A DNA stretch of 64,000 nucleotides from Naganishia liquefaciens (Eukaryota; Basidiomycota; Tremellomycetes; Filobasidiales; Filobasidiaceae). Both the position numbers and the translations under genes were made by a program. Numbering within the stretch: position 1 is the stretch's first letter; each line of letters opens with the position of its first letter. Positions 23,353 through 46,185 of the stretch are shown in pieces. Location: assembly GCA_013423385.1 (NCBI GenBank), contig BLZA01000058.1, forward strand, positions 1-64,000, in the 5' to 3' direction. The notes below the pieces were generated by a model. It did not search any database. It was not told where the DNA came from and worked only from the letters and a program-made list of their open reading frames with translations.

Positions 23353-26232
23353 CTAAGCGGCAACCTTTACGCCCTCGGCTTTGATCTTGCCTCCCTTGAC
23401 CGTCACTTTGCCTGCCCAATCCTTGCCCTTTCCGGTCGGGACCTCAACGACGGCTTCCTCGCCATCGGAGATGGCATACGACTTGACCTGCAAGCCGATG
23501 GTCGCATAGTCGTAGTCGGGAACTTCAACCGATTCCGGTCCAAGGCACAAGACCGTGTTTTCTCGGACGTAGACGGGAATCCGTGTGTACGGATAGTCGG
23601 TCTGTTTGATCCACCGCGGGCCCTGGATCACTTCGCTGGTCCAGAAACTGCAAGATACATTAGTCCAGGTGCGGCTACGACTTTGCGGAAACATACCAGG
23701 TCCATTTGCCCGAGGGAATGTACACGAGCGCGGTATCGTCGGAAAAGACAGGAGCAACCAAGAGTCGATCTCCGAGCATGCTGGGATGGGTCAGTACCGG
23801 TACCACGGCTGAGAACCTCTTGCTCACTATTGCTTGTCGAGGTTTGGCGTCATCGGGTCGTCGGGGAACTCGATGACCATGCTACGCATGACGGGAACGC
23901 CGGTGTTGGTCGCGTAGATCGACTGGGATACGGTTAGCTCGAGTCTCGGTCGCAGGCAATTCCCACTCACCTGCGCGTATAGGTAGGGCATGAGTCGCAA
24001 CTTGGTCTTTGTCATGATCGAGCACACGCGGGACGCCTCGTCATCGCCTTCGGAATCGTAAAGCCAGGGAACCCGGTACGAGTTGCTGCCGTGCAACCTT
24101 GAATGCGACGAAAACAGACCGAAAGCGAGCCACCGCTTGAAAAGTCCGGCCGGCGGTTTCCCCTCGAAACCTCCGATATCGTGCGACCAAAAGGCAAAGC
24201 CCGTCGACGTCAAGCTGAGACCGCCGCGAAGCGACTCCGCCATCGCCTCATATGTCGACTCGCAGTCGCCGCCCCAGTGGACGGGGAACCTCTGGCCGCC
24301 TGCCGTGGCCGAACGAGCGAACAAGGCCGCTTGGTGCTCGCCGTATCGCTCCTGAACCGCATCAAAGACGACCTTGTTATACAGATGGGTATAAAAATTG
24401 TGTGCTTTGCGTGGATCGCTACCGTCATGGTATTTCACGCCAAGATGCGGGATACGCTCCCCAAAGTCCGTTTTGAAAGTATCGACGCCGATATCCATCA
24501 GACCTTGAAGCAATTTCGCGTACCACTTGCAAGCCGCGGGATTGGTGAAATCGACAACAGCCATTCCGGGTTGCCAAAGGTCCCACTGCCAGACATCGCC
24601 GTTGGTACGCTTGATGAAATAGCCGTTGTCGACGCCTTCTTGGAAGATACTTGCACGCTGACTGATGTAACTATTGATCCAGACGCAGACTTTGACGTTG
24701 TACTTTTCCTTTACCGTTCGGATATAGCCCGCGGGATCGGGAAAGGCCTCGCTATCGAAGGAGAAGCTGCACCAATCGTATCTGCGCCGGATCTTGTCAG
24801 TTCCAATCCCGCCTCATTGAAATTCGCCTTACCTTTTCATCCAAAAACAATCGAGATGCAGCACGCGAACAGGGCAATGCCGTTCTTTCATGCCTTCTAG
24901 GAAAGCAGAGACGGTCTTTTCGTCATACGAGGTTGTAAACGACGTGGACATGTACAGCCCGTAAGTCCACGCAGGCGGCAGTGCGGGCTTGCCGGTCAAT
25001 TTGGCATAATTCATGAGGACCTGCAGAGACTCTATTAGCTTCTGATCGACTTGCGCCAAATGTTGATCTTACCGTTTTCATCGATCCGCCACCAATGACA
25101 TAGTATTCCAGCTTTTCACCACGGACGCTGAAGCCGACTTTGGAACATTTTTCGCTACCGACCTCGAAGTCGACTGTTCGTCGGCTGTCAGCAAAAGAGA
25201 AGCAGGGACATACACGGACAACTTACCTTCTTCCGGATGATTCACAAATACGCCATACCCGCGACTCGAGAGGTAAAACGGGATGTTCTTGTAGGCTTGC
25301 TGACTTGAGGTTCCGCCGTCTTGCGAAGAGGACGTGAGCTTTCCACGGAGGTGACGCGTATAAAATTCCAACCAGTGACTCACCTTGATTCCAGATTCCG
25401 ACACTCTGCCCATTCTTGACAAACGGTCCAAACCTTTCTCCCAAGCCATAGACCGACTCGCCGACGCTCAAGGTCAATTCATTGAGCATGAAGCGGACCT
25501 TGGCGTTTGGATCGCTGTTTGACGGTGCGACCCCGGTCAGCGCGTCCGGATATGTCGACATGCACCCGGCCTCGGACATCTGCCCAAGAGTATGAGCGTA
25601 CGGGACATCGATGAACGCTTGGCCTTTGGGCTCCGTCCCGCACAGAAACACTGGCTTGCCGGTTGTGCTGTCGGTGAACGAGACTGAATACGAGTAGGCA
25701 GAGGTATTGACGCTGGCGGTGAGTGTACCAGATTTCAGAGCGAGGGTCGAGTCGTCGGGTCGTATAATGCTCGGCTTTGGCGAGTCGGGCGCGCCATCGG
25801 GAAATAAGTCAAAGTGGGGCCCATGTTCGCGAACTCCCTGCAATGACCGAATCACAATGGTCAACCGAGCTTGGCAGATCGTCAAGATAGTTTCCGTACC
25901 TTGTGATGATCGATCCTGTGCGTGCATCAGAGCCTTCAGCGCTGCTCGATCTCGATATCGCGGCGGAACCCACCGAACTTTGATGATATCGTCACATGGT
26001 GACGAAATATTGACGGTCAAGAGGGAGCCTGAATGACGACTCCAGCGACCAAACGCATCAGGTAAGCAGATGACATACCATTCAGCGTATCGCCGCGGCT
26101 CGCGACATGCTTCGATGCTACCAAAAAGTCCAACTCGCCATTCTTGCCGTCGTTGAGGATGTCGACGACCTCAACGCCGCCTTGAAAGTTGTGGCCTTGT
26201 GGTCTGTGCCACAGGCCGTCTGTAAACTTCAT
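23353..26232 (-). CDS. GH31 alpha-xylosidase (YicI/XylS type)
   Basis: The enzyme releases alpha-linked xylose, for example from xyloglucan oligosaccharides. The GH31 nucleophile motif reads [10 protein letters not shown], the form typical of YicI-type alpha-xylosidases. The acid/base aspartate lies in [11 protein letters not shown], followed by [14 protein letters not shown]. Other family stretches are [13 protein letters not shown] at the start, [20 protein letters not shown] before the barrel, [16 protein letters not shown] and the C-terminal beta-sheet domain. No signal peptide is present, so an intracellular enzyme acting on imported oligosaccharides is likely. At least eight short introns interrupt it. 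It diverges from the sugar permease at 27580, which fits a shared pathway. Confidence 0.9.
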
Positions 26233-27579
26233 GCTTGCTGCTGGGCGTAAGGAAGCGAAAAGATCTGTACAGGCGGCAAGTTCGACTGGTTAGCAGAATC
26301 CCAAGTGGCACGTCCCGCTGCAAACTCACAAAGATACGAAGCTGAAGGACAACCGATGGCGTCTTGTCTGCGAGCTCACGGCGCGTATCTCTCGAGCACA
26401 TCATAGTTCGTTGATGTTGGCCTAATATCGCAGAGGGCACATGAATGAGTGCGAGTTATACCGGCGGGAACAAACAAAATCCCAACTCACCGAGGACTCG
26501 CCGAGTGCTATACCGGCGTTCCACAAACACTAGTGCCCTCTCATCCCGGTCCGACGACACAATGGGACTTGCTTTGTTGTCGATATCTCATTACCTCATA
26601 GCCGCCTAAAGTTGCTGATGACTGCCACTAGGGGCCCAAGTGGGAGACCACGATGACGAATGGGGCCGGATGTGGCCGTGGTCCTGTGGGGCTGGTCCGT
26701 TTTCGTCCGTATTTGTTTAGTCGTTCGAGTCAAAGCAAGCGGGACGGCGATCGGCATAATGTGATGCCGTCACTCAGGGGTGTTGAAGACGAGATCCGAA
26801 CGAGGCCGAGGAGCTGACCGAGGCAGCACATGGTCGCAACTTGCGTATCAGCCCTGTTTCAGCATTTCATCAGACAACAGAACGCACTGACCGATCACAT
26901 GCTGAATGGCTTCTTTCCGGCCCGCGGGTCCGTCCTGTCGACGCCCCACGGGGAGATGCGACCGAGATGGGTATAGAGCTTTGAGGAGGCATCGCTTCGT
27001 CCCGGTAGCGCGGGCGGGCGGAACAGCGGCGGCGGCGGCGGCGGCGGCGTCTAGGGATTGCTTGGCTGCGCAGGTCTATTTCGGTCAGGCATTGGTCAGC
27101 CCGCGGACCTCCCCCCGGGTTATCCTCATTGCTCACGTAGCCGTCAATCGCTTGACCGTCAGCGATTCGTGACTTTTCCTTCTAGCGCGCCGTCGTAGGG
27201 CAGCTCAAAGTTTCCGTGTTTCCTGGTTGAGCCTGCCGTGATGGGCAGCAGGAAAGTCCGAGAATTTAGCGATCCACAGATTGCAAGTTTCGTATTGTGT
27301 CTGACAGAGAACGGCGATTTGGCCCATTGAGGCACTCCGGGAGCACAGGCTCTGAAGCCGTTGGCGGAACGGTCTAGCTACCTGACTCGACTTCGGCGCT
27401 CTCGAGTAAGAGCCCAGGCAAGTCTGTATGTGGTCAGTCCTCGTTAGACCCAAGTCACTGTAACAAATGCAACGTGACAAACCGCGTATATATCGCAATG
27501 CCCCTTTGGCCAACTCTTCTCTCTGACGCGAGACCCATCGACTAGAGATTCGCACCTCATCATCCCCAGTAGCCTCATC
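26233..27579. promoter_or_regulatory. Divergent promoter, GH31 / sugar permease
   Basis: This 1.35-kb region separates two divergent sugar genes. A (GGC)n run of about nine units lies at 27023-27049. A TATATAT box at 27487-27493 is about 87 nt before the permease ATG. The word ATACCGGCG occurs twice near 26460 and 26515. No gene is supported. Confidence 0.5.
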
Positions 27580-29943
27580 ATGGTTGCCCACACCCCGGAT
27601 GCCGAGTACTCACGCCGACAAGTCGTTCGTGCGGACAATGCAGAGATCGACAACCATATCGCGGGATACTCGGACTTGATCAAGGATGCCGCCGATGCGG
27701 ATCAGATTGAGCATGAGATGGGCGTTCGACAGGCGTTGAGGATCCACAAAAAGGCCGTCTTGTGGAGTATGGCTCTGAGTGCGGCGTTGATTGTACGTGA
27801 GCTAGAATGCGGAGAGAACGTGCCGAGAAGGGCTGTCCACCCCTGACCGATCTCACCACGAACAGATGGAGGGCTATGATGTAGTTCTTATAGCAAGTTT
27901 CTATGGTCACCCAGCCTTCCTCAAGAAGTACGGGGTGCCAGGACCCGAAGGGAAGAACATTATTCCGGCGGCATGGCAATCTGGACTCGGAAACGGTTCC
28001 AGCGCCGGCGGAATCATTGGCCTGCTCATCAACGGCTGGGCATCGGAAAAGTTTGGGCCCAGGAGAACATTTCTTGTGGCCATGGTCTTGATGATCGGAG
28101 CCATCTTTGTGCCCGTCTTTGCGGAAAGTTTGCCGGTTTTGACGTTTGGCGAGGTGTTGTGCGGAATTCCTTGGGGTGAGTCTGAGCGCGTGGAAGAGGA
28201 CAGTTGCAGAACGTTGATGCTTCGAGTCTTAGGCATCTTCCAAACTCTGACAACTGCATACGCCTCGGAGGTGAACTCACTAGCTTGTGACGGTTTCAAC
28301 GAGAACTTACCATATGTCTCATTCCAGGTCTGTCCAATCGCCCTTCGCCACTACTTGACCGCGTAAATCATCCGACCTTCTCGCAAGGGAGATACGTACT
28401 CACTCTCGAACGTCTCGACAGGTATATTAATGCGTGCTGGGGCTTCGGGATCCTTTTATCTTCGGGCGTGGTGCGCGCCTGTCTGAATATAGAGAGTCAA
28501 TGGGGTAAGTGTATTTGAAGGGACAGCGCAAAGTTTCCGCTTTCTGAACATATAACTCGTCTTCGTAGCTTACAAGATACCATTCTGCCTGCAATGGATA
28601 TGGCCTCCGATTCTTATCACGCTCGTCTGGTTCGCGCCGGAGAGTCCTTTCTGGCTTGTCAGACAACAGAGGTACGCGGACGCCGAGCGGAGCGTGCGCC
28701 GCTTGACTTCCACGGGCCACTTCACCGACGAAGATGTCAAGCGAAACGTGGCCATGAAAATTCATACAACTGAGCTGGAGAAGAAAATGACGGCGGGAGC
28801 GTCGTATATCGACATGTTCAAGGGAATTGACAGACGGCGGACTGAAATTGTGGGAGAACGCTTCGATCGCTGTTCTGCTGTACAACTAAACTTCTACTTT
28901 CTGCAGTCTTTGATGGTCTTTGCTGCCCAGCTTCTTTCGGGGTGCGTTTCCTTGCCCGTTCGCTGCTGCACAGCGAGTGATTAGCTAACCATTCCCGACT
29001 CCATAGGCAAAACCTCATTGGACAAGGCGTTCAGTTGTAAGTGAATGGGAAGCGATGTCCGACCTCGACTTTACCTCTTTCCGCTCTTCAAGCTTCCAGC
29101 AAGCTGGTATGGCCGTTCAAGCATCATACGATCTCAACCTTGCATTGAATGCGGTAAGCCAAGCTGCAATCGCTGAATCCCGCATGCCTCTCATATCAAG
29201 CATTTACAGATGTTCGTCGTCGGCACTTTTGTCTCCTGGGGCTGTGCGTATCCTGAGGCTGCTCTTGCGGGTTCCTTTGCTCATCAAGCTAAGCTATTTT
29301 GTAGTGCTCACCCGCTTCGGCCGTCGAACATTGTACCTCTCTGGTCTCGCGACTATGGCTGTGGTCCTTCTTATCATCGGAGGTATGGGTTTCACCGATA
29401 GCACTACAGCCAAATGGGTGAGCGGTGCACTCCTGGTTTTCCTCAATCTGGCCTACAACTCCACGCTCGGACCGGTATGCTACACCCTGGTCGCCGAAAT
29501 ATCTTCAACGAGGCTTCGGGCAAAGACCATCTCCCTTTCTCGAGTGGCATATCAATTGATGAACATCATTTGCGGCATCATTGTCCCGCGACAACTGTCT
29601 CCCGCCGAATGGAACTGGGGTCCCAAAAGCGGTCTATTCTGGGCGGGAAGCGCCATCTTGACTTTCTGCTACGTTTGGCTGCGAGTGCCCGAGACGAGGA
29701 ACCGCAGTTACGGTGAATTGGATCTTCTATTCGAGAACCATATCCCAGCTTGGCGCTTCTCCAAGACAAAGGTCGATCGTAAGTCTTGGGTCGGCCGTTT
29801 CGAAAAAGTCGACTGTGCGCTGATCATGATGTCTAGAATTCAACCTTGATGAGCGACCAGACATCCCGGCCGATACGCCTTATCTGGAGGAAAAGCCCGA
29901 CTTGAAGACTGACATCACCCACGCTGAATATGTTCGCAAGTAG
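27580..29943 (+). CDS. MFS sugar permease, alpha-glucoside (maltose) type
   Basis: This is a 12-helix major facilitator importing sugars or oligosaccharides. After a hydrophilic N-terminus, the first helix region reads MEGYDVVLIASFYGHPAFLKKYG, as in fungal alpha-glucoside permeases. The sugar porter motifs GWASEKFGPRRT, PESPFWLVRQQR, FGRRTLYLSG and PETRNRSYGELDLLFE are all present. Many short introns are needed; for example GCC TCG GAG joins to GTC TGT, and a GTGCGT intron at 29240-29303 restores WGLLTRFGRRT. The tail is acidic (LDERPDIPADTPYLEEKPDLK). Next to the GH31 alpha-xylosidase, an oligosaccharide substrate is plausible but unproven. Confidence 0.88.
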
Positions 29944-30190: not shown

Positions 30191-32676
30191 CTATGATGTC
30201 GCAATCAAGCAGACCGCCACAACCAACCCAAAGATCGTCCAGCCCTTGATAGCAGGGCGCAGACCTTGTCGGCGATCGGCCTCCGTCTCCATGGCCTCCT
30301 TCTTGACACGATCCGCCTCGTTGAGCCGCAAGACGCCGCCGAAGTACTTCTTATCCACGAACTGATGGGGACAGTGATCAGAGTCGCGCTGGCAAGTAAG
30401 GATACTTTAGCTTACGTGGTATCCTGCACCATAGAGGATGTCAACGGCCTTGAGCGCAATCATGAAGTAGAACATGTTGTCGTATTGACTTTTGCCAGCT
30501 GGGGCTCGGTCTTGGACTATGAGATTGAGTGTGCAGTGAGCGGATAGTGCCTAAGACTGTGCCGAGTTTCTGAGACTCACTGGCACCGACAGCGATGTCT
30601 ACGACCGTAGAACCCGCACTGTTGAGAGCCTTCCAGAGACCAAACGCCGTGCCAATACAGGCTTGTGATGGGACGAGCAACGGTATTGAGGCGATGAACG
30701 GAATCTACAAGTGCGTGTTAAGAAGACGAAGGCAGTTAGAGACACAAGGCCTACTTACGGCATTGCTTGAGAGGGCGACAGAACCGAGGATGACTCTAAT
30801 CAGAAGAGAAGGGTTCCAATGAGTGAAAGCCATACACCCTGTGATGAGGACTGTGCTTACGGTACGAGGGGATGAACGGAGGAGTACGCCAATAGCGAGA
30901 ATACCACAACCCAAAGGGCTGGAGAGCGACGGCGTCAGCGCAACAGCAGATACAGAGGGACACGAACGCACCTGCAGTTGCTGAAACGAACCACATTCTT
31001 CGACCGAAAAGGTCAAAGCACAGTCCAACGAGCGGCGTCATTACAATGGGGATGATCTAGAGCACATGTCGAGCAAGATTAGCGAGTGCCGTGCGGTCAC
31101 GAACTGCAAATTCTCTCACCTGCCCAATCGCACTGGTGTATCCAGCCGTTAGCTTGGTGGTCCCTCGGGTATTTTCGATCGTCTAGAAGATGGGTGGCAT
31201 GAGATCGCCTATTTCAGGAAGGGTTCCTTTGCGCGCGTACTTCGGACAAGTTCGAAGAGTAGGCGCCAACAACACCCGCTTGCAGCAGCTGAGATATCGC
31301 AATGAACCCTGAAGAAGACGCGAATGCACATTAGTCTGAGAATATGCAAGGAGTCTCCCGAAGACTATGTGCTCACAGAATGCAGCTGGAATTGCTTTGA
31401 TGCTGATTGCAACGAATTTGAAGTGCTCTTTCGAGAAAGGAGTCAAAGGTCGCTGGAGACTCTCATCCGCATACGATGAGACGGATTTCTTGTCAACTTC
31501 GGCCTTCTGCCGAGCCTGACGCGCAACTTGAATTCCGGTGACGATCCGGGCCTCCTTTGGAAGGCTGCGCTCAATCAAGACATAGGCGATGTTGAGTCCG
31601 AGTGTCACAGCGCACAGGATAGCGCCGACCTGTTGGCGGAAACGTTTAGCTGGGACCATGTCAGACGGCAGCTGATGCGACTTACCCAGAAAGCAAAGTA
31701 CCACTTTCCTGTTGATTGGGTAATGGGAATAGCGGAGAGATTACCGCTCAGGTTGAATACACGACCCATGGCAATGTCCAGTCCGTACACCTATACAGAA
31801 GAGAGGCTTGCTGAGTGTCTTTGACAAGACGAACATTGACACTACGCACGAAGCCGATCCATCCTCGACCGCCTTTCGCAGTACCACGGTACCTTGGAAG
31901 AAGAAACCATGTCAATACGCCAACGGAAACTGGAAGCGAGTTATCGTCTCACCAATGAGTGTAGAGCTTTGATTGTGCGGTTTCAATAGTTGTGCTTCCG
32001 ATACCGAACAGGATTTGTCCTCCCAAGATGCTGTAAGACGGACCGGATTAGCTGATGGCTCCTGTGATGATGACTAAGCTAGATTCAAAGCTCACATGGG
32101 AAACGAAGCCTTTTGGCCACCAATGGCCCTGACGACCGCACCGAGCAATATGAAGGTCGAGGAAGCAAGAGAACCGAAAGACGGGCCGTAGTAGTCGATG
32201 ATGATACCGGAAAAGATTGGCAGGACGCCGTTGATGAGCTGATCCGACGACGAGATCACACCGTATTTTGCGTTGGTGACACCGGGCACTTGCTTCCGGA
32301 TGGTGCTTTTAAGAGGTGACAGGGAACTTTGAGTGTAGTTGCTGCCCACTGAGCATGAAAGCGTTTCAACCGAAGACTCAGAGCGAGACAAAGCAGGCAA
32401 GAGCTTACGGGTGAAGAATATCACTAGCACGAGCGCTGGCACCTTCAGCCGCCAGGGCAGTACCACTGCACCGGTACCCGATTCCTGCAGGCCCATTGAA
32501 GAGTCGGCATCATGGTCCCCATTATTGAGAACGGCGACTCCTGTTGGCAGATTCAGAGTGTGCGACTTCTCTGTTTTGTCTGCCGGCCCATCATGGGCTT
32601 CTGTCGAGGCCATCGATTCCGAACCCTCTTTTGAGGACACAGCATCGTCGTCCCTTTTGTATTGTGCAGAAGCCAT
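30191..32676 (-). CDS. MFSD1-like MFS transporter, copy A
   Basis: This is a major facilitator of the MFSD1-like branch, whose known members are endomembrane transporters. The N-terminus is hydrophilic and acidic. Then follow RLKVPALVLVIFF, the luminal stretch VGSNYTQSSLSPLKSTIRKQ, ISSSDQLINGVLPIFSGIIIDYYGP and GGQILFGIGSTTIETAQSKL. After THWFRGT come MGRVFNLSGNLSAIPI, NTRGTTKLTAGYTSAIG, DLFGRRMWFVSATA and SQACIGTAFGLWKALNSAG. It ends in VCLIATS. About ten short introns are inferred and I see no breaks. Copy B at 33688-35996 is a tandem duplicate. An ATCTGATAA site lies 115 nt upstream, and two more lie farther up. The substrate is unknown; an iron-linked role is inference. Confidence 0.75.
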
Positions 32677-32790: not shown

Positions 32791-32799
32791 ATCTGATAA
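32791..32799 (+). promoter_or_regulatory. Iron-GATA site upstream of MFSD1-like copy A
   Basis: ATCTGATAA exactly matches ATCWGATAA, the motif recognised by fungal iron-responsive GATA repressors (the SreA/Sre1/Urbs1 family). It lies 115-123 nt upstream of the copy A start. The 14-mer CAATCTGATAAGAT is shared with the copy B promoter. Confidence 0.65.
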
Positions 32800-33245
32800 G
32801 ATTGCGGAGACATGCCTGCGGGAGAAAAGTCAACACGCCAAGCAAGGAGTCTGAAAAATGATTCAGCTAGCAAGTGACCCACATCGACACATTGAGTGGC
32901 TTCTTTACTTCGCAGTGTTCATGCAAGCGCAGGCAGCGCCGCACAAAAGCCACTCGCTGAGAGTAACGAATCTCAACAATACTTCACTACACATCCCGCT
33001 GGAAGCCTTGCAGATTCTCCTGATTTGATCAACGCGTGGAAAGCGAAGTAGATAAGATGGATCTTCCAAGAGTGAGACGACGGTCCTTTAGCAAAAGCAC
33101 GGTAGGGACAGTCATCATGGTGTACGCAAGGTGACAAACTGGTCGCAACGCTGGTGAAATACCGGGTGACACTCTACAAGCGCTAGACAACGGATCGGCG
33201 AATTCCTCGAAGCGAGGTGATTAACTAACTGAATATCTGCCTCCG

Positions 33246-33254
33246 TTATCAGAT
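33246..33254 (-). promoter_or_regulatory. Iron-GATA site, reverse orientation
   Basis: TTATCAGAT is the reverse complement of ATCTGATAA. It lies about 570 nt upstream of the copy A start. Confidence 0.55.
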
Positions 33255-33617
33255 ATCGGAGCATCAAGGATCTCAATTGCTCTTGGCTGTATTAGCTTTC
33301 ACTTTCCCTCTTCTCTCCTCAGGGGTTTTCGTGTGGATCACGACTGTCCGCCCGCGCTTCGCTAAACACATCAAATGATCGTGGTGTCTGAGCTCAAAGC
33401 GTCCTATGATCGAGACTGCGAGCGGTGCGGGCCGCTTCCTGTCGGGTCGACTCGCAGCAAGTGAAGCGTACTTGCTTTGGCTAACTTTCAGGGGATACTT
33501 GAATGCGCGACTGCTTCATTACGTAGAAGTTTTGACCATGCTGGGCCATCTCACGCTTCTTCGAATTTAATATCGCTTTCACGACTTCATGGAATACACG
33601 ACATACAGCACACTACA

Positions 33618-33626
33618 ATCAGATAA
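33618..33626 (+). promoter_or_regulatory. Iron-GATA site near the copy B 3' end
   Basis: ATCAGATAA is an exact motif match 62 nt beyond the copy B stop and about 0.94 kb upstream of copy A. A near match (GTCAGATAA) follows at about 33646. Confidence 0.5.
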
Positions 33627-33687
33627 GTCACAACACGTCAGACAGTCAGATAACATCTCGAAACAGCAAAAAGGAGCTTCAGACTCA

Positions 33688-35996
33688 CTACGACGTGGCA
33701 ATCAATACAACGAGCACCAGGAGACCGAACGCAGTCCATCGCCTCCTGGCAGGGCGGAGACCTTGAAGTCGGTCCGCTTCGCTTTCCTGCGACTCTTTTG
33801 CGAGCCGATCCTGTTCGTTGAGACGCAAGACGGATCCGAAGAAACGAATATCCAGGAACTGGCAACAGGCACGCAATGACAAAAACAATCAGTCAAGAGG
33901 CGGTGTGGGTGATAAACAGCATGACTGACGTCGTAGATCAGACCATACAAGACGTCCACCGCCTTCAAGGCGATAAGAAAGTAGAAGACACCGTTGTACT
34001 GGTTGTCACCTTTGGGTGTCCTGTCCTGAACTGCGAAGAAAGGTCATGAGCCGACGGAGGCATCGAGGATGATGGCGACTCACTGGCTCCGACGGAGACA
34101 TCTGTAATTGTGATGCCGCTAGAGTTGAAAGACCGCCAGATACCGTACGCCGTTCCAATAGATTCTTGTGAGGACACCAGCAACGGGATGGACGCGATGA
34201 ATGGAATCTGCCACGACGTATTTCAGCACAACGTGGGGTGGGGATTCCCGGCCACCTCTCGCGTACCGCATTACTTGACAATGCCAAGGACCCCAGCACG
34301 ACCCTGTCAGCGAGCAGGTGAATTAGATCTAGCTTAAATTACCGAATCCGGGCTGTTGCTCACGGTATCATTGGGTGGACATTAGTATAGGCCAATAAGG
34401 AGAAAACGAGGATCCAGAGCACTACAATAGCAGGTGCAAGTGAGCGTGGTGCGCATACCGGAATGGAGCATCTTACAAGCCGTGGCGGAAACCAGCCACA
34501 TCCTCCGTCCGAATAGATCGAAGCAGATGCCAAAGACGGGAGTCATGATGATGGGGACGATCTAGCACATCAGAATCGATTAATCAGGACCTTCCGCATT
34601 TGCAACTTGGTGGGCCGACAGACTTCACCTATGGCACTGGTGTATCCTGCGACCAGCTTAGTTGTCCCCCGGGTGACTTGAACGACCTATTTCACAACGA
34701 TACTGCCGGTGAGCGCAAGCTCATTACATTGACGAGCAGTCGCAACCCACCTCGGACAAATTCGACGTATATGCATGGGCGACTCCCGCTTGCAAGATTT
34801 GCGTAATTGCCAAAAGCCAAAAGGAAGCGGGCAAGTTGAGAATCGAATATGTGAGAAGGCGCCAGTGGTATAGAAGCGAAGTGGGCCGTGAATGTGAGGT
34901 CGGATTGTCATGTGCTGTGACCGGTTGTTGCGCCTGAATTTGTTTGAGATATCGACGGCCTGTCATCAATTGGGCGGACTCGGGCAGTGATTTTTCGAGG
35001 AGCAAGTAGATCACTATGAGTAGTAGCGCAAAAGCCGAGAGGATGGCGCCAATCTAGCGGGAATTTGGGCGATGAGAAAGAAGCACAACGAAAGGTGATT
35101 GGTAGAATCGTCAGACTCACCCAGAAAGCCCAATACCATTGACCTGTGCCGTTCGCAATGGGAATAGCGGTCGCATTGCCCATCAGACTGAACAAACGGC
35201 CGAACGCCATATCTAGGCCCGTCACGAGTCCGATCCAGCCACGACCGCGTTTCGTGTCACCGCGGAACCTGCGGAAGGGTCAAGGTCGTTCAAAACAGAA
35301 ATCGGTAAGACGGAATAGGAGATGGCTCACCAGTGACTGTAAAGCTTCGACTGAACCGTCTCGAGCGTCTTGCTTCCGATGCCGGACAAAATCTGGCCAC
35401 CCAGGATGCTTCATAAAACAAGATCAGCACAGCATTTCCACAAGATGTCCGTCGGCTCACATTGGAAAGGAGGCTTTCTGCCCTCCGACCGCACGCACGA
35501 TCGCACCTAACACGACAAATGTCGAAGACACCAATCCGGCAAGAATCGGTCCATAGTAGTCGATGGCGATACCGGAGAAGATGAGAAGCACACCGTTGAT
35601 GAGGTGATCCGAAGACGAGATTGCGCCGTACCGAGAGTTGTTGACATCTTGAATCTGGGCTTTGAGCGTGCTCTTCAGCGGTGGAAGAGAGCTTTGGCAG
35701 TATGTGCTGCCGACTAAGGGATGGATCAGAATCAGCAAGGTAGAGGACTTTCGAGGTGACGTACGGGTGAAGAACAGGATACATGCGAGCGCCGGGACTT
35801 TGACCGTCCACGAAATGCGAACCTCGCTACCATGCCCATCGACGGGGTCACTTGCAGATTCCTTGAGAAGTGTCGGACATGACTGCTCGGGAATGCCGTC
35901 AAGAGTTGGCTTTATTCCTTTCTCGGATGCACACGGAAATGGTTGATCTGGAGTATCGCGATGGGCTGTAAACGAGTGCTCGTCCACGTCCTGCAT
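33688..35996 (-). CDS. MFSD1-like MFS transporter, copy B
   Basis: This tandem duplicate of copy A has the same order and orientation. Shared stretches include VGSTYCQSSLPPLKSTLKAQ, ISSSDHLINGVLLIFSGIAI, SHWFRGDTKRGRGWIG, DMAFGRLFSLMGNATAIPI, WLLAITQILQAGVAHAYTSN and SQESIGTAYGIWRSFNSSG. The C-terminus reads VLRLNEQDRLAKESQESEAD and ends in VLIATS, as in copy A. The N-terminal tail (from MQDVDEHSFTAHRD) and the central loop differ strongly, so the duplication is not recent. No breaks are evident across the short introns. An ATCTGATAA site lies 66 nt upstream. The substrate is unknown. Confidence 0.75.
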
Positions 35997-37158
35997 CTCC
36001 CAGCAACGGCCTAAGAACACTGGCCTCGAGAGCCGGAACAATTGCAAGCATTTCGAAAGCAATCTGATAAGATAGACGCAAGAGGTATTCCTGAACCTAT
36101 TCCACGATGCATTCGAAAAAGCTGCTGCGGAGGTGACGAGGCTGTGCGCAGTCGATGACGGATACCAACCAGTTACCAACCTGACCCAACGTCGGCAGGA
36201 TGAACATGCGTTCCGCAAACGAAGCAGGTGAAACCAGGAAGCCGAAAGCGATCGGAGGCTCGGCAAGCTGCTCGGCCCAAATGCCGCTATCTATAAAACA
36301 TGTATATATCTGCCTATTTTCGGACTGTGATCGGTGAATTATTCCCTTCAGAATTAGTCGCAAAGTTGCATTGCGAAACAGCAAGTCGACTGCACCTTCG
36401 CAACAGCGAGATCCGTTAGCAAGTCAGCATTGCGGTCCCCAAAGTAGACAGAGAAGACGAGCAGGACTCAGAGCCAGAGCTCAGGATGTGTCCTGCGAGC
36501 GGGCATCGAGTCATGAACCACACGTAAAAATGCTATCACAGCTTGTCCATGTCTGGAGACCGCAACGAGGGCCGAGTCTTGTTGGATCCGACCGTTCAGC
36601 TGACGAAAACAACACGGATCGATGAGTGGCGAGACTGATGTGGATTTGCCCATCGGACGCTCGGTTCCCAGCTAACAAAGACCGAATAATGAACATGCTT
36701 CCTCTTCTCAGATAGAAACTCCGCTATGGCAAAGGTTTCCGATGATGGTTCAGGTGGTCGCCCTTGACAGGTTGTCCGATGGACTTTCTAAGGCATCATT
36801 GACAGCAGTTTTCCAGCTGGGATGCTGACCTTACCCTGCAATTGCCAGACCCAATCTCCGCACAAAGGAAGCAGGGGGCAGATCTTACTCTTATTCAGGT
36901 GGCGATTTCTCTACCAAACATCAGGAAGTGGCGTGTACACGATGGCAGTGCTGTTAGACAATGGAAAGGCTACAGTCCCTAGATTACCGGAAGGGAATTT
37001 TGAAGCACAGACGTGTGTAGGAGGTTGTCATACTCAGTCTCTGCAATCATACTATATGCAGATGTGCTGATAAAGGCAAACAGCCAAACACACTGTAAAT
37101 TCAAACTTCTCAATACAGCTTACCAAAACGACACTCAGGTGTTATTCAGTCTTCATAA
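35997..37158. promoter_or_regulatory. Spacer between copy B and the zinc-finger gene
   Basis: No gene is supported in this 1.16-kb stretch. It carries the copy B promoter with its GATA site and, nearer the right, more AT-rich DNA upstream of the zinc-finger gene. Confidence 0.4.
36062..36070 (+). promoter_or_regulatory. Iron-GATA site upstream of MFSD1-like copy B
   Basis: ATCTGATAA lies 66-74 nt upstream of the copy B start, inside the 14-mer CAATCTGATAAGAT that is also found upstream of copy A. Confidence 0.65.
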
Positions 37159-37809
37159 ATGTCTTTCTACACGGCGTTGCCCCATGACACTGTTTTGCAT
37201 AATCCCAGTCATGGTAGCATCATGCTTCCTTCCACGAACTGGACTTCGAGTCAACAAGGTCAATACCGAAATCCCGACGCAAACAGCTCATCATTCCCAC
37301 TATACACAGCTCCTACCCCTAGCTTAGATTCCCTTAGCTTCGGTCTCTTTTCCCCTGCCTCGACAGACCTTCCCGAAGGAATGTGGTCCAATCCCTTCAC
37401 AAACGACCTCTGCCCACGGCAGAACACCCAAGAGTCCAGTGAAGTTTTGACTGACGTACATCCAGATCTGCGCAAGGCGTTCAGCCACGACGAAGGTCAA
37501 ACGGAGTCCTCCAAGCGCAAGAAGGTTAACTCTTCTCAGCCTGTAGCAAGAGGGAGGGACAGCAAGAGGGATCCTAATGCTAGAGCGGGCTTTTGTCCAT
37601 TATGCCTAGGAGAAAAGCGCTTTTTCAGTCACTTAGCTGATCATTTCAAAGTCAAACACCACAATGTAACACTGACACCAGCGCAAGTGGCGAGTATTTC
37701 CCCCAAGTTTCGGCAATGCAAGTGTGGTCATCTGCTACGGGTCAATAATGGACTTGGAAGTAGACATCTGTGTCAAAATTCAGCTACCTCGAGCCAAGGG
37801 CATGATTGA
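37159..37809 (+). CDS. Putative zinc-finger nuclear protein
   Basis: A single exon encodes 216 residues. The first half is Ser/Pro/Asn-rich with aromatic residues, resembling an activation region. A basic patch (ESSKRKKVNSSQ) precedes a Cys/His-rich C-terminus. FCPLCLGEKRFFSHLADHFK and VKHHN give a C2H2-like finger. After a spacer, FRQCKCGHLLRV and SRHLCQ could form a second metal site. The arrangement fits a small DNA-binding or nucleic-acid-binding protein, but I do not recognise the family. It stands alone between the transporter pair and the siderophore transporter, so a regulatory link to either is speculative. Confidence 0.55.
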   Translation: MSFYTALPHDTVLHNPSHGSIMLPSTNWTSSQQGQYRNPDANSSSFPLYTAPTPSLDSLSFGLFSPASTDLPEGMWSNPFTNDLCPRQNTQESSEVLTDVHPDLRKAFSHDEGQTESSKRKKVNSSQPVARGRDSKRDPNARAGFCPLCLGEKRFFSHLADHFKVKHHNVTLTPAQVASISPKFRQCKCGHLLRVNNGLGSRHLCQNSATSSQGHD

Positions 37810-38936
37810 GAGTGTTCGGATGGCACATACCATTCCCCGGCTTGTAGGCGACTCTGGCACAGGTTGATAATCCTTTCCTTCTTTGCACATTCACCGGCTT
37901 ACAAGACATGTTTATATTTGTCCAAAGACCTTGTCGGGAGGCAATGGGACTCAAAGCCATATGAACTTTGTGCGAATAAGTTTATGCTGGAGCTGTTTTT
38001 CTATCCCTTTTTCTAAAAACTTCGCTCCTTTCCTTAAAACTTCGCCTTGAACGGCACTTAGCCGGTCCTGAAGTCATTTCCGATGGGCATGGGACTACTA
38101 TAACAGTAATAATAACTGGGAATTGCGCGATTGCCTATCCTATGAGCCTACTCCACAATGAGGGATTGTTGTCAAGTCAACAGTTGTTTACACATAGTGA
38201 ACTCCTCGACATTGCATGGGGCTAATATCAGGTGCCCTCTCGCTACTTGAATGTAAGTTGTATTGGGATTCGCCTGAGTGTGCCCATACTGTCATTGTTT
38301 GCTTCAGAGGCAGAATGCCAGTCGCATAGAGAGCGCCTACATTCGATCAAGTAGTAGCCCAGTCTCACTGTATAGTGTCGTACCGTCTCGCGTGTCCCCG
38401 TAAGACTTCAGCATAAGAGCTAGTGAGCTCGATCACCCAAACAGCTCGGGCTGCGCGGCGGAACAGCTGGAGCCAGCTTAGCGCTTCCGAGAGATTCTCA
38501 TTTAATTTCGTACCTGCGCTTCCTTGCCCGCGCCAAGCCCATGGTTATACACCACTTTGCGTCGACTATCAGCTAATCAGATAATGATAAGGCATCGGAG
38601 CGCGACCGACATGGGCCGAGTGAAAATCGCGTGTCGCTTCCTCGGCCTTGCCCAGGTTGAGGGTACACGATCACCAGCCACTCCGCGCCGTCGTTCGTAT
38701 AATCGTACGCGCAGAGAGACGGATAGGCTGAGGAGCTGGAGCGGTGAGTCCTGGGAGGGGTGAGTGCTGGGAGGCATGATTTTGGTCTTGGTAGTCCCGG
38801 TCTGATCCGCTCGGATCGTGAACGATTTTTTTCGCTCATTGCCCTGAGCGTCCGTGTCTCTTGATATATTATATATACCATCCGAAGGCAAACGCTCGCC
38901 TCAGGCATCTAACTCTTCTTATCAACCCTGCCCATT
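37810..38936. promoter_or_regulatory. Upstream region of the siderophore transporter
   Basis: No gene is supported. Besides the GATA site at 38576, a GATAAG follows at 38585-38590 and a TATATATA box lies at 38870-38877, 60 nt before the ATG. Confidence 0.5.
38576..38584 (+). promoter_or_regulatory. Iron-GATA site upstream of the siderophore transporter
   Basis: ATCAGATAA matches the iron-responsive GATA repressor motif exactly and lies about 353 nt upstream of the start. A second GATAA core follows at once (TGATAAGG). Confidence 0.7.
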
Positions 38937-41189
38937 ATGAGTCGCTCACTCGAAACATTTTCTCAAGAAGACAAGTCGTCGTACAAGGACGATCAGTCAA
39001 TCCCGCAAAATGAGAATGACGTCTCAGCAGTACCGACCCTGGATGCTCGAGCGACAGCGGAAAAGCCAGATGGCCCGGTTGTTACCTCGAAATCGAAGGG
39101 AGTCATCGGTATGGAACTCCTCGCGTCCCGACTAAACACCAAGTATTTTGTCTTGCTGTATGGAGGGTTCGTGTTGCTGGCCTACACCTTGTCACTAGGT
39201 GAGTGGAGACCAGGCTCTTCCGACATATCGCTGATGACCATATTAAGACCAATATACCTCGGGAACTTACAATACATATGCAACGTCCCAAGCGTTCGAA
39301 GCACATTCCTTGCTCGCGACGATCGGCGTCATTCGAGCCATTTTCCAATCGATCTCGCAGCCACCGATGGCCAAAATCGCCGACGTCTTTGGTCGAGTCA
39401 ATGCCTATATCCTCAGTGTCGTGCTTTACGTGCTTGGCTACGTGATTCAAGCTTCCGCACCAAACATCTATGTGAGTCACTTTCGCCGTTCTCGACTCAA
39501 CCAAGCTGATGTGACACTCCTTCAAAGGCCTATGCAGTCGGAAATGCGATCTACATCCTCGGTATCACGTCTCTGTTTTTGCTTCGTAAGCTCTGCAAAG
39601 TCGCTACAGGACCACATACTGATCGAGCTATTTGTTTTCAGAGAACATCATCATTTCCGACATTTCCTCGCTACGAAACCGTGTCTTGATGACCATCTTG
39701 CCAAACACAATTCCCGGCTGCCTCAACGTCTGGGTAGGAGGTGATGTTGCCGCATCTGTTCTAGCCAATGCCGGTTGGCGTTGGGGGATTGGTGAGCCTC
39801 AGTACATCTGGCCGATCAAGTCAAACGCTGAGCAAATTCTTGCAGGCATGTTCGCTATTATTACTCCTGTTCTCGCCGTTCCCATCATCGCTGCCCTTGC
39901 CACCGGTTCGCGAGCCCGCAAGGTCAAGGACGTTGAGGAAGTCGAAAAGGTCAAGGAGATCACCGTACTAGAGAAGCTTTCCCGGAAGGAGCGAGCGATT
40001 TCAATGTTCTGGCAGTTGGATCTGATCGGGTTGCTCTTGTTCATCGGTGGAACGGGCATGTTCTTGGTCACAATCACACTTGCCAACAACAAGACCAAGT
40101 CTTGGGCCGATGGTATGTCAGGCAGGGATCGACTCTGATCGCTGAAACTAATTCATCAGCACTCGATATAGCTCAATCGATTGCCTTGCTCGTCGTCGGT
40201 GTGGCCCTGCTTGTTGCCTTCGTTTGCTACGAGCGTTTCTACGCACCGCATCCGTTGATCCCCTTCCAGCTCTTGACCAACCGCACCGTAATCATCTGTT
40301 TCGTCATCGCTTTGCTACACCCAGTCGCCGGACGAATCGTCGGTGGATATTACTTCACTTTCTTACTGGTTGCTGCTGAGCAGGGCAACAAGTGGGCCAC
40401 GCGCCTCAGCAACATTGGAAGTTTTTCGGGAACAGTCATGGCGGTAGCGGCTGGATTTGCTGTCCGTTACACACGACGAATCAAATACGTCGTTATCTTC
40501 GGATTTATATGCCAGACCTTGGGAACGGGTTTGATGATTCGCTTCAGAACAAGCACAAATTCGAGGGCTGAATTGGCTGCTGTTCAAATCGTGCGAGGTT
40601 TCGGAGTCGGTTGCATCAGTTTCCCCATCCAGGCCGCCTTGCAATCAGCTTCCAAGCATGAACGTAAGTTGTTGTAGGCTACAGACCGCTCGACTGCCGC
40701 TTCTCATGCGTTCACTCTTTACAGATATGGCCGCCATCACCGCGGGCTGGTTGTTAGTCTACTATATTGCCGGCGGAATCGGTTCCGCCATCGGAGGAGG
40801 TAAGATCGTCTATGGCGCTTTCCTTTCTGAGTTGCCAAAGCTAACGATCGCATCCCGTAGGCATCTGGACCAACAAGGTTCCCGGAAAGCTGCAGCAGTA
40901 CTTTACCAATTCAACTTTGGCGGACTCGGCGTACAAGAACCCGACAGGCTTCATTGTCAAATATCTGCCCGGTACTCCCGAGAGAATCGCCATCGCTAGG
41001 GCGCACGACGAGACTCAGCGGCTCATGGTCATCGTCGGCATGTCCGTGTCTGCAGTGGCCCTGATCACTGCATGTTTCCTTCCAAACATCCGCCTTCCGG
41101 ATACCCAGTCGATCGAGGACGAGGAGCCGACCTTGGCCAACGCGACTGCGGGGAAGGCGCCTGCCCCTGTCGTTCATTCGGCAATGTGA
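38937..41189 (+). CDS. Siderophore-iron MFS transporter (Str/Arn/Sit family)
   Basis: This transporter imports ferric siderophores across the plasma membrane; the family has 14 predicted helices. The N-terminus is acidic and Ser-rich. Family landmarks are YFVLLYGGFVLLAYTLSL, then DQYTSGTYNTYATSQAFEAH, QPPMAKIADVFGRVNAY, VGNAIYILGITSLFLL and ISSLRNRVLMTILPNT. Later come ITAGWLLVYYIAGGIGSAIG and the C-terminal external loop GIWTNKVPGKLQQYF. Seven or more short introns are inferred. The promoter has the iron-GATA motif and a TATA box. Which siderophore is carried cannot be told; no synthetase lies in the window. Confidence 0.9.
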
Positions 41190-43342: not shown

Positions 43343-45486
43343 TATGGGCGCTATCAAAGTACTTGACCGATAGTCTAAGGATGTACGTACCGTACATGGT
43401 CTTGTCTGTGGAATTAATATACTGAGACAAGGCAGAACTGCCCAAAGACGGGTCGGACTGACGAGGTGGATAACATGAAACGGATACCATGAGATGATAC
43501 CTGCCCCGCTTTTTCCTAGCGGGGCAATGGGGCTCCTCGGACCGACACCGGTTCGAAATGCTCAGATTGTGGATAGATTTGCCTCTGTCAGGCAGCATCT
43601 TCGTGAATGCTATCTCGACATCCGAGGCTCAGCGCTTTCGCCTCTCAACATGGTCCACATTGTGCGGAGGTTGGCCTGACGATCCTTACGAACACCGCTG
43701 CCCCGCATTCTCCACCACCAGTATCGCGTCGTGAAGAACTGAAGATGGTGGCTCAACGTCGCCGAACGAGCGATTGTCATGAAATGGCGTCAGCAATCGA
43801 CCAAAGGTTGCGTATGGTTGCAGAACGAGAATACTATCGTTCGCGAAACGGATGCGTAAAGCTTGGTTCGAAGACGCTTCCGGCCTCACAGATATCTTTA
43901 TGCGTTCACGCAACAAGCAGGTTTTTCGCTTGGGAGAACCGCATCTTTCAGAAAACAGAGAGCAGCTCAGGCTAGAGGTCCCATGACTCATGGTGGAAGA
44001 AACTTCTACCTTGGAACATACCGTATGCTAAGGCTTGTACATGCGTCACAGAACAGAGGCTGCATGTGACTTCAAATGCACGGGCCCCAGATTGAAGACT
44101 GGAGCTCGGGAACTTTCCACATGACTACCAACGCGAGACGGTCGGCATCTCTTGCGGAATAGGTATGCGAAGAGGCATACAAAACTCACGGTTATCCTTC
44201 AGTCTCCTGCGTTTCGTATACGACGCATAGTGACATTTGGCGGCCTTGCCCAGTGTATTGAATGCAAGAATGGATAGAAAAAAGCACCGAGCTGGCGGAG
44301 TCTGTGCGTACTTCTGCTCATGAGCTGGATAGCAAAGAGAAAGGTCGAGGGGACTAAGCGGACAAGGTCAAAGCCAGGGGAGCTGAACCTGAGGATGTTA
44401 CGACCGCGCGCTTCTTGCTTACGCAATCTGAACGGCGTTCTTACGCTCCTCGTCAACGCATACCCACCTTACAGGCAAATGCACTTCCGTCTACGCGGCA
44501 CTCCAGCATGACTGTCGTACTGTAATCTTCTTTCCCGACTTACTTTCTCGACGTATCGAGATCTTCTGTTCTCACGTTCACAAGCTATAGAGAGTCCAGA
44601 TCCCAGCATTCGTATGGCAACCGATTTCTTTTCGAGAATCATTAACGCTCTCCTGATCCCGTTATACTGATTCAGTCCCCGACGGCTAAAGTGTAAGTGG
44701 GGAATGCGAATAAAAGCATGATTTACGAGAAGTCTAGACTCATCTGGCGAGAGGTGCACTAAGATGTGGGAATGGCGTGAGAGCGATCTATCATACGATG
44801 TGCTGTCTCTCTTCAAACGGTCGGCTGGTGTTGGCGTATTTGTTGGATCCGGTACAAGTACATGCGGCATATATTCCTTGTAACCGCGACAGGCTAGATT
44901 TTGAATAAACAGTCCCCTCGGGACCCCATGAAAGCGGTTCGTCTAGAATGTCAGCCAGTGTTCCAAAATTCTTCCCGTTGGAAGGACGGAAGCTACAAGG
45001 CACGGAAAGCATCCAAAACTACGTTCCAGGATTCCTCCTCAGACTGATATGTCTGCATGATTGTCAACAGCAAGCTTTCTGTATCATCTCCCACATAATC
45101 CCGGGTATTTCTGTCTTCAACAGCCACTCCACGCCTCCGCATCCGAAACGCAACCTGCCAGCTGAGCTCCCATTCTGCACATTCGACCTCGACATTCATT
45201 TGCTCAGTTTGACACTGACGCTCATGTCACGGTATCATCTGAGTCAACTAGGTCACCTGTTTGGACGGATGTACATGGTGCAGTTTCTGCAAGGACCTTC
45301 ATGGATCTGCGCTGGATCAAAGGAGAGCCTCCTGGGGTTTGTGCATAGGTCCGTGGCCACGAACGTGCATGGCCTGTTGACATAGGTATATATTCGTGTT
45401 GAAAGATCAGGACGTGATAGGCACACAGCGCCTCCGCTCTCACCTCGACCTGTCGCCTCCCTATATTCGAAACAACTGCCGCTGCC
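43343..45486. other. 2.1-kb spacer, no supported gene
   Basis: Several open frames of 60-145 codons occur on both strands. None shows a domain, codon pattern or splicing that I can support. A possible upstream GH79 exon lies at 43490-43395. A TATATAT box at 45387-45393 precedes the DUF2278 gene by about 94 nt. Confidence 0.4.
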
Positions 45487-46185
45487 ATGCCCGCCTTGAA
45501 AGACGTTCAGAACTATGGCGTTTGGTTTGCCCGACCAATCAAGTATGACGTCGAAACCAAGGAAGATGACCCTAAGAGCCCTCACATCCACCTGACTTTT
45601 CGGGACAACTCGCAAGAAAATTTCACTGCAGCGATCAATATCAAATCCGGAGACCGCAAGGAATCGAGACTCGTCTACTGGTTCAACGACGATATGCATG
45701 CGTCATTCATCGATGATTTCAAGGGCCTGAAGCCGGGTTTTCACTCGCTGGAAGGAAATACCAAAGGCCTCGATTACCTCCGAGATGACGGTCTCTTCGA
45801 CCAAAGTAAGGGGGAAATTCTTGACCACGACATCGATGGCGAGAACAACGACATCATTGACAAGCTCACCCCTCTTCTGAAACGAAGCGTCAACGAAAAG
45901 GCAACCATTCACATCTTCGGGTCTCAATTTGGGGGGAAGAAGTCCACTGGCAAACAACGAGGTATCCACAATGTCCATATGAATCAAGGTTCCCTCCCAA
46001 AGTACTCGAATGGCGTTCAGCAAGACGGGGCCATGTTCTTCCACTTCGAGGATGAGGATCAGTGGGTGGGGGTGTTCTTAGCCTTCGCGAGTCAAAGGGT
46101 GCCGACAGACAACGAGACTGGCCAGCCTTTGCCAAACGCAAGGAGTTGGGCGAATATCCTCAAACAGGAAGAGGAGGAATTCTGA
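45487..46185 (+). CDS. DUF2278 (YukJ-like) protein
   Basis: An intronless frame encodes 232 residues. It follows the DUF2278 pattern from end to end: QNYGVWFARPIKYDVET, FTAAINIKSGDRKESRLVYW, GLKPGFHSLEG, GLDYLRDDGLFD, ENNDIIDKL and IHIFGSQFGG. After these comes the strongest block, GIHNVHMNQGS...GVQQDGAMFFHFEDEDQWVG, then VFLAFASQRVPTDNETG. The family is best known from bacteria (B. subtilis YukJ) and has no established biochemical role. There is no signal peptide or membrane segment, so it is probably cytosolic. The lack of introns in an intron-rich neighbourhood would fit acquisition from bacteria, but that needs a phylogeny. Confidence 0.85.
   Translation: MPALKDVQNYGVWFARPIKYDVETKEDDPKSPHIHLTFRDNSQENFTAAINIKSGDRKESRLVYWFNDDMHASFIDDFKGLKPGFHSLEGNTKGLDYLRDDGLFDQSKGEILDHDIDGENNDIIDKLTPLLKRSVNEKATIHIFGSQFGGKKSTGKQRGIHNVHMNQGSLPKYSNGVQQDGAMFFHFEDEDQWVGVFLAFASQRVPTDNETGQPLPNARSWANILKQEEEEF

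Follow-up and report, generated by a model that had tools for sequence, protein, structure and literature searches.

The closest described counterpart of the system considered here is the SreA regulon of Aspergillus fumigatus, in which the 9-base motif ATCWGATAA, reported for SreA targets, precedes siderophore transporter, ferroxidase and ferric reductase genes, and in which iron-regulated genes are clustered and a putative peptide transporter is among the targets (PMC2610380; citations here and below refer to retrieved passages of the papers). In vivo sites of Ustilago maydis sid1 comply with the same motif, a cysteine-rich region is stated for SRE-type GATA factors, and Cir1 of Cryptococcus, which is devoid of an N-terminal finger, is described as repressing reductive uptake but activating that of siderophores (PMC2610380). 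Among transporters, MFSD1 is a mammalian lysosomal dipeptide uniporter whose dipeptide-binding residues include Glu150, Arg181 and Asp60 (PMC11252000). Here, we analyzed a 64,000-nucleotide stretch of Naganishia liquefaciens DNA (contig BLZA01000058.1, positions 1 to 64,000; hereafter the window), in which five ATCWGATAA sites cluster around three transporter genes, namely gene S, a siderophore-transporter homologue, and genes A and B, two MFSD1-like members of the major facilitator superfamily (MFS). We propose that these sites probably tie all three genes to an iron regulon under a GATA factor encoded on another contig. The locus resembles the SreA regulon in the motif, in the kinds of genes that carry it and in their clustering, and differs from it in belonging to a basidiomycete yeast, in having two MFSD1-like genes in its densest site cluster and in an FTR1 gene without a site.

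Gene A (30191..32676, minus strand; 14 exons, 568 amino acids, spliced model) and gene B (33688..35996, minus strand; 12 exons, 550 amino acids, predicted exon borders) are paralogues with 62% protein identity, and gene S (38937..41189, plus strand; 8 exons, 622 amino acids, predicted exon borders) is by homology a SIT/ARN-type siderophore-iron transporter. An exact scan of the 64 kb returned five ATCWGATAA sites and no others, and all positions listed in an earlier note on this DNA, together with its remark that none occur elsewhere, proved correct. Counting within 1 kb 5' of the ATG, A has three full sites, B one and S one. The site of gene B (36062..36070, plus strand, ATCTGATAA) lies 66 bp 5' of its ATG, and the nearest site of gene A (32791..32799, plus strand, ATCTGATAA), about 115 bp 5' of the ATG, falls within a word, CAATCTGATAAGAT, that is common to the gene B promoter. 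Gene S is preceded by a site about 353 bp 5' of its ATG (38576..38584, plus strand, ATCAGATAA), with TGATAA directly after it (38585-38590). A further site is found about 570 bp 5' of gene A (33246..33254, minus strand, ATCTGATAA), and the last at 33618..33626 (plus strand, ATCAGATAA; GTCAGATAA at 33645). Because the latter is about 940 bp 5' of A and about 60 bp after the stop of B, its target gene is the least sure of the five.

As a bare total, five matches are only moderately rare (dinucleotide shuffles gave a mean of 0.61 per window); the rarity sits in their clustering. The three intergenic stretches beside A, B and S (3,302 bp) contain 5/5 sites, whereas shuffles of these stretches yielded a mean of 0.059 and at least three sites in 0/4,000 cases; the gene spans of A, B and S (7,048 bp in all) contain none. 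Neither the bare core WGATAA (39 observed vs 34.9 expected) nor the motif with up to one mismatch (21 observed vs 18.2 expected) is enriched in the window, and both were therefore ruled out as the signal.

Across the genome (19.4 Mb in 28 contigs, the window being C27:1-64000), ATCWGATAA matches 224 times, or at 215 places once 9 palindromes (TTATCWGATAA) are merged. The genome-wide scan proposed by the earlier note identified the five window sites, lying in 5.8 kb, as the densest cluster of the whole genome, though the total of 224 is only little above the approximately 185 expected from window shuffles scaled to the genome (the reversed pattern has 91 matches). When the 215 places were distributed at random, five fell within 5,786 bp in 1/20,000 placements. 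The next two triple clusters accompany a ferric reductase gene (FRE C1) and a FET3-like oxidase gene (C18). Overall, the genome-wide excess of the motif is small, and since its density is 0.74 per 64 kb genome-wide vs 0.61 in window shuffles, an isolated match means little. The argument is carried by the cluster and the company it keeps, not by single matches.

This company was assessed with a test set of 13 genes from four iron-uptake families, comprising four S homologues besides S (including one weak match), one FTR1, three multicopper oxidases and five genes with the ferric-reductase NAD domain, gene starts outside the window being predicted by eye. Of the 13 genes, 5 are preceded by a full site at a distance of 1 kb or less, corresponding to a binomial probability of 1.9e-7 at the genome motif density and of 3.8e-5 if that density is tripled. 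The five genes are the siderophore-transporter homologues C11a (site at -339) and C13a (-686), the weakly matched SIT-like C13b (-582), the FET3-like multicopper oxidase C18 (-455 and -107) and the ferric reductase FRE C1 (-33 from the first ATG). Comparing one exon of the C18 oxidase to solved structures gave yeast FET3 as best match (E 8.6e-23), with laccases close (E 1.1e-21). Beyond these 13 genes, a palindromic site at C2:18006-18016 precedes a heme oxygenase gene (Pfam E 1.1e-22), about 185 bp 5' of a guessed start that is the least secure of all gene starts. Pfam identified the heme oxygenase and the FAD domain of FRE; an NCBIfam scan of exons from heme oxygenase, FRE and C13b had zero matches. 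Given that the genes preceded by the full motif include a FET3-like oxidase, a ferric reductase, siderophore-transporter-like genes and heme oxygenase, we conclude on sequence grounds that it marks an iron regulon in N. liquefaciens.

Two further observations stand apart from this test. Another palindromic site, C15:29331-29341, is located about 140 bp before the ATG ahead of a Pyr_redox_2 oxidoreductase frame (Pfam E 1.9e-29; AIF-like by eye). Furthermore, the sole FTR1 match (C14) and the FET3-like oxidase (C18) sit on different contigs, and clusters of ferroxidase and permease genes are described for U. maydis, S. pombe and C. neoformans (PMC2610380).

Several sites agree over words longer than the motif. 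The window 33246 site and the C13a siderophore transporter site have an 18-base word in common, and the FRE C1 site has a 17-base word in common with a site of the FET3-like gene. In a comparison of 11 iron sites, which left out the palindromic heme-oxygenase place, random flanks reached the best word length in 19/20,000 draws and the two best pairs jointly in 0/20,000. Likewise, the 14-base word CAATCTGATAAGAT around the A and B sites is the longest common to both upstream regions, a length reached in 4/1,000 shuffles. In a tree of 27/69 homologues plus B, the B protein joins the A-type proteins from four species of Naganishia as an outer branch (98/96 with five rows; 100/99 with four rows), and the A/B duplication thus looks older than these species; the 14-base word would have been retained or regained since the duplication. 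Immediately 5' of the motif, A or T occupies the position in 13/13 iron-gene matches vs 19/30 others (p 0.019), the latter being rich in palindromes, which have T at this position by definition. As a separate observation, the 33246 site is inside an inverted repeat, CTCCG-TTATCAGATAT-CGGAG (window 33240-33260), whose inner CCG..CGG is also present at the C13a site and possibly reflects an extended operator or an additional factor.

A candidate regulator is encoded on contig C9. The genome has 5 matches to the GATA finger (PF00320), including one on C9 over the cut-off. The cysteine-rich region between the fingers of SRE/Urbs1/Cir1 factors has the spacing Cx5Cx8Cx2C, and the C9 factor contains exactly such a region, CPGDGLCNGTGGKSACEGC, as well as an SRE/Urbs1/Cir1-type C-terminal finger that is completed across its intron. 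In both features it resembles Urbs1 of U. maydis and Cir1 of Cryptococcus (PMC2610380, PMC10672361), and its first finger is not recognisable, Cir1 being reported to lack this finger (PMC2610380). At the N-terminal position, a degenerate CxxC...CxxC is visible by eye, with zero PF00320 match there. Among the best 120 of 599 matches, relatives of the C9 factor carry names such as Fep1, URBS1-like and srep, and two (P0208, P0209) are named "transcriptional activator of nitrogen-regulated proteins". The same matches contain the "gata factor srep" of C. deneoformans, which we take to be Cir1, with 52% identity over 95% of the searched region. The predicted C9 product is thus a GATA factor of the SRE/Urbs1/Cir1 type. 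When the earlier note assigned the motif to iron-responsive GATA repressors, it was right in that the motif is known for SreA targets and that a matching regulator is encoded, but the term repressor is not established and is unsafe here, because Cir1 acts both ways and the C9 factor is likewise without a recognisable N-terminal finger. In addition, a palindromic TTATCAGATAA site (C9:292527-292537) is located in the C9 factor's own gene, within the intron interrupting the C-terminal finger, and self-control through this site is possible.

Turning to the transporters, S matches P0120, named "Siderophore iron transporter 1" (36% over 92%), and relatives also named ferrioxamine B transporter and MirC, in keeping with the SIT/ARN family. 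Unlike SIT/ARN proteins, A and B are not retrieved by S in a genome search and match MFSD1-like proteins. MFSD1 is the only credible PDB sequence match of A (PDB 8r8q; E 5.1e-18) and the first Foldseek match of its predicted structure (E 5.6e-11; prediction alignment of 25/69 homologues), in a fold search that separates MFSD1 poorly from other MFS proteins; for the last exon of A alone, there were zero credible PDB matches. The gene A model agrees across all 568 residues with NliqN6_6686 of N. liquefaciens (577 amino acids). The gene identities proposed in the earlier note, one siderophore-transporter homologue and two MFSD1-like genes, are supported, the latter by both sequence and fold.

The MFSD1 likeness of A and B, which extends to Arg181, is accompanied by an altered pocket. 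We transferred the MFSD1 residue positions via one alignment to 63 rows, made up of 61 database proteins, A and B (P0001 repeats A; P0044, P0062 and P0064, with at most 380 residues, were left out, and the distant P0065-P0069 were tallied apart). Glu150 and Asp60 are each kept in 0/63 rows, 7 of which are gapped at Asp60, and positions 176, 365 and 393 are altered in nearly all, so that, unlike mammalian MFSD1, the fungal clade is devoid of these two residues and of most other named pocket residues. In nearly all rows, position 176 is Asp and position 393 is Lys, and an acidic residue is found three positions beyond 150. Arg181, which forms half of the dipeptide clamp, is kept in 59/63 rows. 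Four distant bacterial relatives retain Tyr56, Tyr59, Asp60, Glu150 and Arg181. Given the loss of Glu150 and Asp60 from every row, the label "dipeptide transporter" appears doubtful for the A/B family. The homologue searches for A and S scored 7,997 candidates sharing most words, among which A homologues occur in smuts, red yeasts, some mushrooms and Naganishia, the absence of a lineage being uninformative in this sample. In the tree, the MFSD1-like proteins of Naganishia cluster with those of smut-lineage fungi and not with Phaffia (100/100), for which old retention and horizontal transfer are candidate accounts.

Taken together, we favor an explanation in which the C9 factor binds the five window sites, and to which, as a whole, we assign a probability of roughly 0.65. 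The sites would place S, A and B in one iron regulon with the FET3-like oxidase, the ferric reductase, other siderophore transporters and heme oxygenase. Upon a change in cellular iron, the cysteine-rich region would alter the action of the C9 factor at the sites, and transcription of A, B and S would then shift, most simply upward in iron shortage. A and B would then most likely carry an iron-linked solute, such as a siderophore, its breakdown product or another small chelate, through the plasma or vacuolar membrane, rather than ordinary dipeptides. We are confident that the five sites are functional, and consider it likely that A and B respond to iron; for the transport of an iron-linked solute by A and B, the odds are about even. 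The local iron regulon postulated by the earlier note therefore holds in part: the motif marks iron genes elsewhere and a regulator is encoded, but an iron role of A and B is not established.

Several points weigh against this explanation. A site within 1 kb is lacking at 8/13 iron-family genes; the siderophore-transporter homologue C11b and FTR1 have none within 1.5 kb upstream, and for the other four FRE-domain genes and the other two oxidases, no site occurs within 14 kb. The C13b gene is weakly matched to S (33% over 54 amino acids), and one of its exons is without Pfam match. Omitting it leaves a weaker set of 4/12 genes (binomial 6.7e-6), and in the strictest set, which also leaves out C18 and C1 since the clustering had already singled out both, 2/10 genes remain (0.005; a threefold density raises this to 0.04). 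Some other clusters and palindromes adjoin genes without an iron link visible by eye; at those inspected, by open frames and, for one ABC-transporter exon, by Pfam, no clear iron gene was recognised. Finally, the N. adeliensis homologues of A and S are on different contigs.

The pocket residues are central to the alternative that A and B belong to the iron regulon and are true (di)peptide transporters, iron shortage entailing protein breakdown and peptide recycling. This view accords with the MFSD1-like family and fold, with the retention of Arg181 and with the SreA repression of a putative peptide transporter and an endopeptidase in A. fumigatus (PMC2610380). It is at odds with the complete loss of Glu150 and Asp60 and the nearly universal change at 176, 365 and 393, whereas the four distant bacterial relatives retain Glu150 and Asp60, and we consider it unlikely. 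The sites might also serve a nitrogen-type GATA factor of the AreA/Gat1 kind, A and B being nitrogen-controlled peptide transporters and the iron link of S incidental. The GATAA core is common to GATA factors, a second finger locus on C11 is AreA-like by eye, and the names of P0208 and P0209 refer to nitrogen regulation. Yet it is the long form ATC-W-GATAA that clusters while the bare core does not, the long form precedes FET3-like, FRE and siderophore-transporter genes, and the C9 factor has the iron-type cysteine-rich region, all of which makes nitrogen control quite improbable.

The remaining alternatives concern the sites themselves. If only S, perhaps with one of A and B, were controlled, the other sites would be passengers, as could be imagined for the 33618 site just after the B stop and almost 1 kb from A, and isolated motif copies are indeed near chance genome-wide. 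The sites 66 bp from B and 115 bp from A, by contrast, are proximal and have a 14-mer in common despite 62% protein identity, leaving this option with a low probability. Chance alone could draw on the fact that 1/100 whole-window shuffles also reached five matches, and that site pairs occur near unrelated-looking genes. Considering that the cluster arose in 1/20,000 genome-wide placements and that 0/4,000 intergenic shuffles reached three sites, we regard a chance origin as very improbable.

If A and B respond to iron, as the C9-controlled regulon predicts, another fungal MFS family besides SIT/ARN would handle iron-linked solutes, and labelling this family automatically as "lysosomal dipeptide transporter MFSD1" would mislead. 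More tentatively, and with the odds against it, the basidiomycete MFSD1-like clade could represent an unrecognised class of iron-chelate or siderophore transporters under SRE-type control, providing a second MFS route beside SIT/ARN. Rhodotorulic acid, the cyclic-dipeptide siderophore of basidiomycete yeasts, is a candidate substrate of this clade: Rhodotorula kratochvilovae, which is reported to make rhodotorulic acid (PMC13015310), has a clade member (P0043). In open PubMed Central papers, supplements excluded, we found no link of the A family to iron, the few candidate papers looking unrelated, and the retrieved passages of PMC10672361 (on U. maydis Grx4) and PMC13015310 do not mention MFSD1-like genes. 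Judged by titles and abstract starts, we noticed no study of a Naganishia iron regulon among the literature matches listed. The site map offers a candidate for such a regulon, with operator words exceeding the known motif, and one small gene cluster makes the iron-transport question testable.

With regard to siderophore production, and unlike A. fumigatus, no Lys/Orn oxygenase was recognised in the genome, where an intron-broken gene could be missed. The lone match, on C7, reads by eye as a glutathione-reductase-type protein and was rejected, and no hydroxamate pathway was recognised. Within the window, a 216-amino-acid open frame between B and S (37159-37806) has paired Cys/His spacing (CPLC...HxxxxH by eye) and zero Pfam match, and is possibly a small zinc-finger gene. 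A glycoside hydrolase family 31 gene stands beside a sugar-transporter-type MFS gene at 23830-29943, a region with zero full iron sites, and the two likely form a sugar-use pair. A further gene, at 45421-46182, has a DUF2278 domain (E 1.7e-66).

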